A stretch of DNA of 64,000 bases from Apostichopus japonicus (taxonomy: Eukaryota; Echinodermata; Holothuroidea; Aspidochirotida; Stichopodidae): NCBI RefSeq assembly GCF_037975245.1, contig NC_092562.1, positions 3,774,001-3,838,000 of the forward strand, written 5' to 3'. The notes below the pieces were generated by a model. The model did not search any database, was not told the DNA's origin, and saw nothing but the letters and a program-made list of their open reading frames with translations. The position numbers and the translations under genes were made by a program. Of this stretch, positions 6,631 through 42,569 are shown one piece after another (positions within the stretch are counted from its first letter, which is position 1; the number at the start of each line of letters is the position of its first letter).

Positions 6631-6996
6631 CAAGGGCGTAGGAACCGGGGGGGCTGGGGGCGCCAGCCCCCCAGTGAAAAATATGGGGGCGGAAGTATCA
6701 TTCCGCCCCCCCCCCCCCCGCTCAGCAAGTCAGAAAACCCCTTTTTCATTTCCAAATCAGAAAAAAATCTCATTTGGAGCACCAAATTGCATCTAAGGCC
6801 AGGTGAAAATGCAAAATTATTTACAAAATGGACTGGGTGTTGAAGTGTGCTATATTGCACCAAATTGCATCTGAGGCCACCTGGAAAAGCAAAAAAAATC
6901 CAAAGGGGAGGGGGACACCCCCTCCCCTTAGACCCCTCCCCCAGGCCGGCCATCAGTCTTCAGCCCCCCACTCAAAAGTACCTTCCTACGCCACTG
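6631..6996 (-). mobile_element. hAT-like MITE, G-tract family, copy 1
   Basis: A 366-bp element starting CAAGGGCGTAGGAACC and ending CTTCCTACGCCACTG, flanked by exact 8-bp duplications TATACACT (6623-6630, 6997-7004). An 8-bp duplication and CA-G termini are hallmarks of hAT transposons. Runs of G or C lie just inside both ends. It encodes no transposase. It is a close reverse-complement relative of the element at 41822-42186. Confidence 0.85.
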
Positions 6997-7004
6997 TATA
7001 CACT

Positions 7005-7984
7005 TATGGCAAACGACGAAGGTGATTCCACGAGAGGTGGTTTATGAGCTTGGGGGGGGGGGGGATTTTAAATTCCAACTTATTAAGGTACCGGGAGGGA
7101 TGAAGCTTTATGGAAGGGCGATCGGTGCCTGGAGGGGTTGTGTACGTAGTCCTTCCCAGAATGATTGTAAGAATTCCTCGACTGGACGTTTTTCCCCGAC
7201 TGACGATGGATATGGGGAATGCCTATGTTCAGTGCATGCAATTTTTGGTACGTTCTTGTAATTGCATGAAATCTTGATCGACTACCGTACAAGCATATGC
7301 AGTTGGCAATATCATTGTTTAAACGAATCTAAAACACTAAATAAGTTTGTTTAAACTACAAAAATATGTCAAGCCTGAGTTAAAATTCTATTGTTATATA
7401 TGATGAAGCTTAGTGGAAGTGAAAGAAATTTGAGTTGCATTTAATTGATCACTGCTGTGAAACAATAGCAGAAATACGATCCATTCATAACGACCCGCAC
7501 CTTTCCTCAAATGATTCTCACTTTACATATTTATTAATATCCATTTCATATTACAGAAATTGTATCTTATAAGAAGCAGAAAAAAATTGTTTTTTACAGA
7601 GCTTAACAATTCCCAGTAAATTCCCTGGCTAAGTCCCAGCTTGGATGCTGAGAAAAGCTTGTCTTGTCTAAAGAAGCGACATGCAGGGCGTGTATATACC
7701 ATCCTGGAAGTAGTCCATGCGATGAATTCGTTCTTGATAACACTTTCCTGAAGCAAACGAGACGTTACACGTTTTAAAGCTATCATCTGCAAATTACAGT
7801 GAGTATACGTACAAGCTTGCTTAAGTAAATAATTACAAGTACTTTTATTTGACTATACATGCATGCATAGAGTAACTTTGTAATTATAACTTTTAAAACA
7901 AAGGAAGAAGTCAGTAACGTTTACAAAAGATTGTCATTTCTTCAATATATTTATATTAAACCAATTAATTAGCCTATATATGTT
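7005..7984. other. No gene seen
   Basis: Contains a poly-G run at 7053-7064. No exon or transposon ends recognised. Confidence 0.55.
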
Positions 7985-8594
7985 TTTCATTTCATTTTCA
8001 TTTATTTAATCCAGTTTTAATATAAAATAATTATAAGAAAGGAGTACAGACATAAAATATATTAACAATAAACAATGTTAAGATGTTATAAGATGTTAAA
8101 ATGATATAAGATTCAAAAAATTACTCTAAATCAAAGCACCCAAATGCTTAGATTGAAATAATATTGCAGCACGATAGATAAATGAGTTTCTAAAAAGATG
8201 TATTCTATATTTTGGCAAGATATGTCGATTTCTTAGATTTCTGCAAGATTTTGTTAGCATACAGTTTAATAAAGAACGTACAGGATAGTTTTAGTCTGCT
8301 TTAATTATGTTTGCCATCCGAATAAACTCGTTTCTAGCAATCGCAATTTACGTGTCGAATAGGAAGTTGAAGTCTTAACTCAAAATTTTAGAAGTATACT
8401 TCAAAAACTTTGTTATTCTAAGTTTGTCTTTTTGCGATATAAAGTGATACCATATACTGGGACACCGTTAGTTATATGTGGCAGAAACATAGAATTAAAA
8501 ACATTTCTCTTAGCATCACTATTAAAAAATGATGAAAAGAATGCTAGACTAGATACAATGTAATAAACTTTACTGAGGATCTTCGAGAAAGAGA
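7985..8594 (-). pseudogene. LINE reverse transcriptase C-terminal remnant
   Basis: On the minus strand, broken frames give FNSMFLPHITNGVPVYGITL and further on LPKYRIHLFRNSFIYRAA. These fit the end of non-LTR retrotransposon ORF2 proteins, which have a P-h-x-x-G-x-x-x-G block and a late R-N-S-F-x-Y-R motif. Stop codons and frame changes show it is dead. The 3' side (about 7985-8010) is an A-rich tail when read on minus. The upstream (5') side is cut by the ATT microsatellite. Confidence 0.6.
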
Positions 8595-8887
8595 TATTAT
8601 TATTATTATTATTATTATTATTATTATTATTATTATTATTATTATTATTATTATTATTATTAGTATTATTATTATTATTAGTATTATTATTATTATTATT
8701 ATTATTATTATTATTATTATTATTATTATTATTATTATTATTATTATTATTATTATTATTATTATTATTAGTATTAGTATTATTATTATTATTATTATTA
8801 TTATTATTATTATTATTAGTATTAGTATTAGTATTAGTAGTATTATTATTATTATTATTATTATTATTATTATTATTTCTATTATTG
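8595..8887. repeat. (ATT)n microsatellite, about 290 bp
   Basis: A long ATT/AAT triplet run with scattered AGT interruptions. It abuts the LINE remnant on one side and ends about 130 bp before the likely GPCR start. The long poly-Asn and poly-Ile frames in this stretch are artefacts of the repeat. Confidence 0.95.
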
Positions 8888-9013
8888 TCGTCTTTAATGA
8901 GGGTAGTCTTTTCTTGTTTGCAAAACACATTTTTTTGGGGGGAAAAGGAAGGTTGGTATAACAAATACTTCGTTTCGATGCACATTGTCCCAACAGATCA
9001 ATCTATTCTCAAG

Positions 9014-40116: not shown

Positions 40117-41813
40117 AAAAATCATTATTTTTGGGGGGAGGGTCTAAAGATTGTTGACATTTTGGTTAGCTGTATATGGAACAGTAGTAAATATGATGGA
40201 CAGAGCTTGTGTATACATCACTTGAACACTCTACTTAGGGATGTAAGAGTATTTAACATTGTTATACGATAATGTTGTGTAAATGTTTCAAGTTAAACAT
40301 TAATTTCAGAAGACATTGGGATCAATTCTTCCTGTTTAACCAGTGTTGACAAAGCTAATAGGGGATTACATATACAGTAGGAAGACACATAGACATCCAT
40401 GTCATCAGAGGAGAGGAAATGAATACGAAAAAAACCAAAACCTTCATAAGCTTAAGTTAATTCATTAAGTAAAATATGATTTACATCGCAATTATTTCAA
40501 AGTAATTTGAATAAATCAGTTAATATTTACTCAACTATGGATTAACTAAGTACAAGAGCATTTGATATTTTGTGAGTTTAATCTGTGTAATTCGTGTCTG
40601 TAATCAATTAGTTCTTTGTCATTAAAGTTTTCCATGCATTCCACAGTTATGTTAATAAATCAATTGTATTTAAATGCTGCTTGTTGCTATTTGTATGTAA
40701 ATTTATGTTACTGTGTTGCAAAGTGTGGTTAGGCTGTCATTTGAATCACCTATTCATAGTTAACTTCTGAGTTCTGCTAAGGAGAACAGCTTATGTTCAT
40801 ATTTGTTGAACCCTATTACATTTGGCTCTTTTTACCGTTAGGAAGTTTGATATTTGTATTTAGGGGCAGGGGCGGGGGGGGGGGGGCGGGAGGGATGCAG
40901 TGATCTTTGCAATTCCATATTAGCAAATATGAAATTAAGTCCACCAGCAACTCTCATTTGTTCTCCGTTTTTGAAGGTTTTGGGAATTGTGGGAACCGTG
41001 GTCTGATATGTCTTATCGAGATATCCAATTATGAGATCAACCATATTGTAATACTTTGTATGGTGTGATTTATAGGCTTAAAAAAAGTTACCTCACACAG
41101 TTGTTTCTAGTGTTTATGTGTGCTTTTAACATGACCTATTAGGTACTACAATCCTCTTTGTGTAATCTTTAAGTAATTTACAAAATTTTGATAAACCTCT
41201 TTCATCTTATTCATGCCATGCATTATGGATATTATAAATACTGCCTTCGAGCTACTCCTTCAAATAAACTTGAGATACAAACTTACAACAGTTCTCAAAC
41301 ATGTATGTCGTCACCTTTCAGTAGCTGTGGGAGGGAAAGGTGAGAAATTGGGAGACATTTGGGGAGATTCCCTGAATTGCCATTTATTCTTGGGGCAAAA
41401 CTTTTTTTTCAATGCAACTTTTGTTTCTACATATAGGGTGTTAAGATCTGATCTCAAGTATGGTCTTTCATGTTTGGAATTGCAACCTTGTTTGCAAAGC
41501 ATAGAATGTTCTGAATTTTGAGTTCCATTCAGGTTATGTCATATCACAAGAGGACCATGGCCTCTGGATAGGATCACTGCAAGTAAGAAGTAGTTCAAAC
41601 ACAAAAGAAACCCACCCTTCACAATTAATCTTTGTGATAGAGTGTGTAATGAGAAACTTTCCCTAAAGCGCAGCTTAGGAAAATCTTATATCATTTCGGA
41701 GGTATCACAGTTCTAATGATTCAACATTCAAGAGATTGAGAACTTGAGCAAGTCTAAAGATGGCAATATCAAGTTACATATGTTTGCGCTCCTAAATGCT
41801 TTGGTTTGTTTAT
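40117..41813. other. Asterix 3' region and spacer
   Basis: Likely includes the Asterix 3' UTR. A poly-G run is at 40870-40890. No other exon recognised. Confidence 0.5.
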
Positions 41814-41821
41814 ATCACAAT

Positions 41822-42186
41822 CAGTGGCGTAGGAAGGTACTTTTGAGTGGGGGGGGGGGCTGGAGACTGATGGCCGGCCTGGGGGAGGGGTCTAAGGGGA
41901 GGGGGACACCCCCTTTGGAATTTTTTGCATTTCCAGGTGGCCTCAGATGCAATTTCGTGCAATATAGCACACTTCAACACGCACTCCATTTTGTAAATTT
42001 AATTTTGTATTTTCACCTGGCCTTAGATGCAATTTGGTGCTCCAAATGAGATTTTTTTCCTCATTTGGAAATGAAAAAGGGGTTTTCTGACTTGCGAACC
42101 GGGGGGGCGGAATGATACTTCCGCCCCTCCACATTTTTCACTGGGGCGGCTGGCGCCCCCCAGCCCCCCCGGTTCCTACGCCCTTG
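41822..42186 (+). mobile_element. hAT-like MITE, G-tract family, copy 2
   Basis: 365 bp, ends CAGTGGCGTAGGAAGG and GGTTCCTACGCCCTTG, exact 8-bp duplications ATCACAAT (41814-41821, 42187-42194). It is the reverse-orientation sister of the element at 6631-6996, similar along its whole length, so the family moved fairly recently. Confidence 0.9.
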
Positions 42187-42286
42187 ATCACAATGCTTAT
42201 TTCCTGTAAAGGGAGATTGCATGAAAACATGAAATGAAGAAGAAAAGAATGTAACCGTTTTCCCCCCCTCATAGTTGCATTATGAC

Positions 42287-42569
42287 CAAGGGCGGCGGAA
42301 GCACTTTTAATCTGTGGGGGGGGGGGCACCAACGTCAAAGGCCACTTTGCAGAAATTCGATTGGACTGATGCAGCTTGATATTTAGTACCCTTTATAACT
42401 CTTATTGTATTATCTTATTTGCGTATACACATCACCCCAACGCCCCTCCCCCCATTTTTATGTACAATTTTTATGTAGAAAAAGGGGCACATTTTAACAT
42501 GAGGAAAAGTGGGGGGGCACGTGCCGCCTGTGCCCCCCACCCCCCCCCCCCCCGGTTCCGCCGCCCTTG
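42287..42569. mobile_element. hAT-like MITE, G-tract family, short copy
   Basis: 283 bp, ends CAAGGGCGGCGGAAGC and GGTTCCGCCGCCCTTG, exact 8-bp duplications ATTATGAC (42279-42286, 42570-42577). Long G and C runs next to both ends. It lies 100 bp from the previous MITE. Confidence 0.9.

Follow-up and report, generated by a model that had tools for sequence, protein, structure and literature searches.

Six elements and their target duplications

We characterized six short inverted-repeat elements in a 64,000-bp stretch of the Apostichopus japonicus genome (C2:3774001–3838000, hereafter the window; contig labels C1–C22 all refer to this one genome of 671.6 Mb). The elements are very probably non-autonomous Tip100-like (DUF4371) hAT transposons with bipartite, asymmetric ends, in which a block of G residues would act as a second recognition site. 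All element coordinates given by an initial annotation of the window proved correct, as did its account of the target-site duplications (TSDs)—five are exact over 8 bp (TATACACT, ACTGACGA, CCCTTACT, ATCACAAT and ATTATGAC) and the sixth, flanking 19802–20201, matches at 6 of 8 positions (TGTATCTC/CGTATTTC). The features of the window elements are:

6623..6630 (second copy 6997–7004), no strand: target duplication TATACACT of 6631–6996, read directly
6631..6996, plus strand: family A non-autonomous element with left end at 6631, recognized by its ends and TSD; keeps both ends of the 5,064-bp C22-type element
6647..6653, plus strand: left-end G-run of 6631–6996, starting at element base 17
6964..6969, minus strand: right-end G-run of 6631–6996, starting at base 28 from the end
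14557..15660, plus strand: family C non-autonomous element; TSD ACTGACGA; keeps both ends of the 5,519-bp C17-type element
14573..14584, plus strand: left-end G-run of the family C element 14557–15660, starting at base 17
15627..15633, minus strand: right-end G-run of the family C element 14557–15660, starting at base 28
14935..15343, plus strand: family I element, nested in the family C element; TSD CCCTTACT; insertion inherited
19802..20201, plus strand: family H element with a 6-of-8 TSD; its G-runs start at bases 19 and 30
41822..42186, minus strand: family A element, inverted relative to 6631–6996, from alignment; TSD ATCACAAT
42287..42569, minus strand: family B element, 283 bp; TSD ATTATGAC; G-runs at bases 17 and 30

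The common end form CA..GGCG that had been ascribed to these elements needs amendment at three of them: 14935–15343 starts with TA rather than CA, the right end of 14557–15660 reads CAGGCGCGG and the ends of 19802–20201 read CAGTGGGA/CAGTGGGG. Scanning the window de novo for CA..TG ends with an inverted repeat matching at 10 or more of 14 positions and an exact 8-bp duplication returned five hits, four of them elements listed above and the fifth an unrelated element at 48042–48681; dinucleotide shuffling gave 4 hits in total across 40 shuffles. The scan is blind to 14935–15343, given its TA start, and to 19802–20201, given its 6-of-8 duplication. The elements have the properties of miniature inverted-repeat transposable elements (MITEs), being short and non-coding with terminal inverted repeats (TIRs) and many copies, and their left ends number thousands genome-wide. 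No stop-to-stop frame of at least 120 aa overlaps any of the six except one of 149 aa that crosses 19802.

What had been described as one MITE family is five families with a common end design (A at 6631 and 41822, B at 42287, C at 14557, H at 19802 and I at 14935), one nested in another. The single-family reading was rejected on alignment: only 6631–6996 and 41822–42186 align along their full length (340 identities, 13 mismatches and 25 gap columns, in opposite orientation). Alignments of the remaining elements to this pair and to each other essentially involve the ends only, with the exception of a stretch of about 100 bp that is common to the outer and nested elements at 14557–15660. The nested family I element occupies the same place in two of the four other family C host copies examined, with both CCCTTACT flanks exact in one (L028) and the left flank exact and the right matching at 6 of 8 in the other (L031); its end strings were not found in the remaining two (L029 and L069). 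Because the same nesting recurs in other copies, the duplication around 14935–15343 records an older event and not an insertion at the window locus. A separate family I copy lies at L067:4925–5283 (TSD ATAGTATT). The window copy of family B is 88–91% identical to the L026 copy and measures 283 bp, compared with 456–880 bp in the 12 family B copies, all from contig C1, for which both ends were found. The inner fillings of the family B copies L024:1501–2261 and L026:1501–2161 differ, and the L024 filling includes the right end of a C5-type (family D) element.

Full-length relatives and probable placement in the Tip group

Membership of the hAT superfamily had been proposed from duplication length and CA–G termini, with an autonomous transposase bearing the same ends as the thing to look for. 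For families A and C, this genome holds full-length relatives with a transposase frame, and these support the assignment well beyond what duplication length alone would. The element with family A ends (C22:2235976–2241039) is 5,064 bp long, has an exact 8-bp TSD (TTTAAAAT) and contains a 752-aa frame; the element with family C ends (C17:6832476–6837994) is 5,519 bp long, again with an exact 8-bp TSD (ATCGGATA), and contains a 796-aa frame. A family D element (C5:1724996–1731527; 6,532 bp; TSD CTTCTCAT) has end bases that match at 14 of 14 positions and an 801-aa frame. DUF4371 and Dimer_Tnp_hAT domains occur in all three frames. The family A element at 6631–6996 matches bases 1–122 of the C22 element at 81% and bases 4823–5064 at 90%, and the window family C element matches bases 1–234 of the C17 element at 89% and bases 5195–5519 at 94%; the retained ends of the latter enclose, besides the nested family I element, some 130 bp of other sequence.

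The elements thus show 8-bp TSDs and short terminal repeats with CA...TG ends (window family I starts with TA) as expected of hATs, and the hAT C-terminal dimerization domain is present in full-length relatives with the same ends for families A, C and D. A genome-wide profile search with the hAT dimerization model gave 150 scored matches among 633 candidates. Five transposase frames share three invariant acidic residues (D300, D365 and E740 in P0001 numbering), which fit the hAT positions and are candidates for the catalytic DDE triad; the sequence match to Hermes structures spans residues 724–769 only. DUF4371 together with a hAT dimerization domain, the combination that would define the Tip group, was found here, so that domain content points to Tip placement. 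We consider families A and C to be supported as Tip-type hAT derivatives by their full-length relatives, and families B, H and I to be probable ones, judging from their ends and duplications. Two further transposases (L057 and L054) have a right-type end on the stop-codon side with G at 28 and 27, respectively; neither yielded a left end that shares a duplication with it, and the left-type end lying beyond L057 is without one.

Two observations concern the full-length elements themselves. At L059:211–1439, a 1,213-bp element is inserted in the 6.5-kb hAT at the presumed start codon, and the duplication of this insertion (ATGGCAAT) repeats that ATG on both sides. Pieces of the window at 3717–4660 are 74–78% similar to the interior (680–1021) of the C22 full-length element, possibly reflecting an unrelated repeat inside it.

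Copies across the genome

The left-end pattern of families A, B and C matched the genome 5,998 times (reversed control, 0), and a right-end pattern built for the B type matched 1,627 times (control, none). G-runs adjoining such ends are frequent genome-wide and not peculiar to the window. Copies were examined from the first 100 left-end matches listed, all in the first 11 Mb of contig C1; the resulting 70 loci, minus a duplicate (L070) and a locus with the left end missing from the cut (L082), left 68. Genomic copies lacking 8-bp duplications would have counted against the initial annotation, and most of these copies have them: the TSD is exact in 51, matches at 7 of 8 positions in 5 and at 6 of 8 in 2. 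The remaining 10 comprise 6 with fewer than 6 of 8 matches and 4 without a right end by the rule used; L034 and L044, whose flanks match under a looser rule, are scored as misses. Three 10-kb stretches chosen regardless of repeats contained one B element, one I element and nothing, respectively.

Target consensus sequences are nTnnnnAn for Ac and nnnTAnnn for Buster. The former occurs in 9 of the 51 exact duplications and the latter in 3 of 51, so that neither pattern is clearly present; the 9 Ac-type duplications are somewhat above the expectation from base composition and may indicate a weak preference. These 51 duplications bear on the target preference of the Tip group.

Two family A copies bracket a hAT transposase fragment both at L052:335–3598 and at a C16 locus (L063 and L061), with outer flanks that share CTTTTTGA and inner flanks that are unlike. 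We do not press a composite-transposon reading of L052 itself: the C16 locus repeats this arrangement together with the flank that follows it on the right, so that a single event copied with its surroundings is the best account, apparently a composite that had moved once beforehand. Viral contigs were also scanned for the left end, giving 13 stretches, none of which had paired ends of this type with a duplication. From their GC content and the DNA of the two that were read (L009 and L011), we took these stretches to be chance matches in phage-like coding DNA.

Geometry of the ends

Each end consists of a terminal repeat of about 14 bp starting with CA, followed by a second inverted-repeat block made up of a G-run and 2–4 more bases that tend to match between the two ends of a family. 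In one element per family, the G-run starts at bases 17 (left) and 28 (right) in families A–F, 16 and 28 in G, and 19 and 30 in H—an offset of 11 bp in seven of eight families and 12 bp in the other (family I excluded). Of the 64 right ends located (the 68 copies minus the 4 without a right end), 58 have a G-run starting at base 28, a position unconstrained by the search. The per-element table mostly contains loci fetched by the left-end pattern, in which base 17 is constrained and base 28 is free. A search at any spacing was made in 323,348 bases, with the A, B and C patterns left out, for a run of six G residues within 80 bases of a CA..GGCG motif; such runs lay near 27 of 98 motifs, and 25 of the 27 start at 15–17 or 26–29. 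Seven mock motifs yielded 8 G-runs in 278.

In the bases that follow the G-run, the two ends of one family resemble each other more closely than ends of different families do, the observed sum being reached in 25 of 20,000 permutations. On the left, the block runs on into a G-tract/C-tract palindrome, the far arm of which matches the right block, on the whole in a family-specific way (1 of 20,000 permutations). Although ordinary hAT derivatives, the elements keep a very regular arrangement of their ends from family to family, and the three full-length elements share it.

Several observations weigh against a reading as Tip-type derivatives with such bipartite ends. For A, B and C, the search pattern itself set base 17. 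Family I (14935–15343; L067) has its G-runs at about 26–30 at both ends, which means that the 17/28 rule is not universal, and counting it brings the 11-bp offset to seven of the nine families having both ends; H (19/30), G (16/28) and the window B copy (17/30) also depart from 17/28. As for the any-spacing search, 4 of the 8 mock G-runs start at base 30, so mock positions are unevenly spread; the 27 ends are non-independent, some families being represented several times and a few ends belonging to mutated A and B copies; and most of the 323,348 bases had been chosen because they held such ends or hAT genes. Single cross-family pairs of blocks score as high as within-family pairs or higher (B left with G right exceeds B with B). 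The AT fraction of the right spacers (0.60–0.85) is partly no higher than that of the window (0.56–0.68 in 2-kb bins). The first methionine of the family A frame lies 91 residues in, and for families B, E, F, G, H and I no full-length element came to light, no dedicated search having been made.

A proposed second recognition block at unequal distances

Families A and C retain both ends of full-length elements but hardly any of the interior, if any at all. We propose that they arose as internal-deletion derivatives and that the elements would have been mobilized by cut and paste in trans by those or related transposases, leaving the 8-bp duplications that are observed. The catalytic core of the transposase may read the terminal repeat and its N-terminal region the G-block, which in most families compared starts close to base 17 of the left end and, following a 13-bp spacer, close to base 28 of the right end. 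An offset of one helical turn could keep the block on the same helix face while marking the two ends as unlike. On this reading, the G-block would be a second recognition site and the 11-bp offset would tell the ends apart. The regular layout suggests a simple and testable idea of how Tip-group transposases discriminate left from right. Its general form, a one-turn rule in which the G-block lies near 17/28 in Tip-group hATs and the transposase pairs unlike ends, in parallel to the RAG 12/23 rule, is tentative and may well not hold.

The G-runs and their spacing might instead have been inherited from a single ancestor, geometry without function, which we consider possible but rather unlikely. 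The family ends are related, with terminal-repeat identity between families averaging 9.2 of 14, and the transposases have domains in common. Yet spacer length is nearly fixed, although the right spacers of ten families (H, I and L054 excluded) are on average identical at only 4.7 of 13 positions (45 pairs; range, 1–10) and the C5 transposase is only 31% identical to that of family A and 28% to that of family C; likewise, G-run length varies from 4 to 16 while the start stays at base 28 in the great majority of right ends.

That the G-tracts work through quadruplex formation at the ends is improbable. The initial annotation had raised the possibility of quadruplexes from the G-runs at both ends, and we find weak support for it in 36 elements (27 of the 30 copies L022–L051 and nine named elements; family I excluded): out of 36 ends on each side, 16 left and 4 right ones contain the four-tract motif, which is missing from 32 right ends and, in 20 elements, from both. 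The G-tract/C-tract palindrome is commoner, being present at 30 of the 36 left ends and at none of the 36 right ends, and folding with DNA parameters gave −12.0 to −14.6 kcal/mol for eight left ends and −0.3 to −10.6 kcal/mol for eight right ends. Another superfamily with 8-bp duplications, such as P, is a very improbable source: duplication length alone does not discriminate, but three full-length elements with the same end design carry DUF4371 and hAT dimerization domains, which contradicts such an origin for families A and C.

Neighbouring repeats

The fifth hit of the de novo scan (48042–48681) is a different inverted-repeat element, with 23-bp perfect ends (CAACGAGGTAAATGAATCTGGAG), an exact 8-bp duplication (TGTACTAC) and, by eye, a long inner inverted repeat, and is without a G-run. 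At 24669–26577, TTTACC-type repeats that include inverted units form a long array.

Comparison with known systems

The reading that we prefer, of Tip-type derivatives with a second recognition block, can be set against several described systems. Tip100 of Ipomoea purpurea has the TIR CAGGGGCGGAG, an 808-aa transposase and an 8-bp TSD (PMC12511174), and the Tip-group element BuT2 carries DUF4371 and hAT dimerization domains (PMC3942097), the same domain pair as in the full-length elements here; the target preference of the Tip group was left open in that work (PMC3942097). The elements described here resemble Tip100 in TSD length and differ from it in size (5.1–6.5 kb for full-length elements, as against 3.8 kb) and in the great number of short derivatives; G-tract blocks and a 17/28 geometry do not appear in the parts of the Tip100 description consulted. 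Nor did we find a report of G-tract geometry at hAT ends in the portions of the literature covered, which did not extend to Repbase consensus ends.

Pegasus-like MITEs of the silkworm (BmMITE-13 to BmMITE-16; 263–431 bp; TIRs CAAGGGCGGATCCAG, CAGTGGCGGATTA, CAGTGGCGTACCTA and CAGTGGCGGATTT) likewise combine TIRs with an 8-bp TSD (PMC2997013), but the sections of that account available to us describe neither a G-tract nor a partner transposase. In Herves, a hAT of Anopheles gambiae, the transposase binds a subterminal motif (CGATTCAT) at positions 15–22 and 73–86 of the right end and within 31–47 of the left end (PMC3143072). Subterminal binding in Herves is likewise asymmetric between left and right, although in the portions of the report consulted no G-tract is described and the element is not placed in the Tip group (PMC3143072). 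RAG 12/23 signals and the asymmetric TIRs of ProtoRAG have bipartite ends with unequal spacers (27/31 bp in ProtoRAG; PMC8289069). The 12 and 23 spacers differ by 11 bp, the same offset as in most families here, a likeness of layout only, between different superfamilies.

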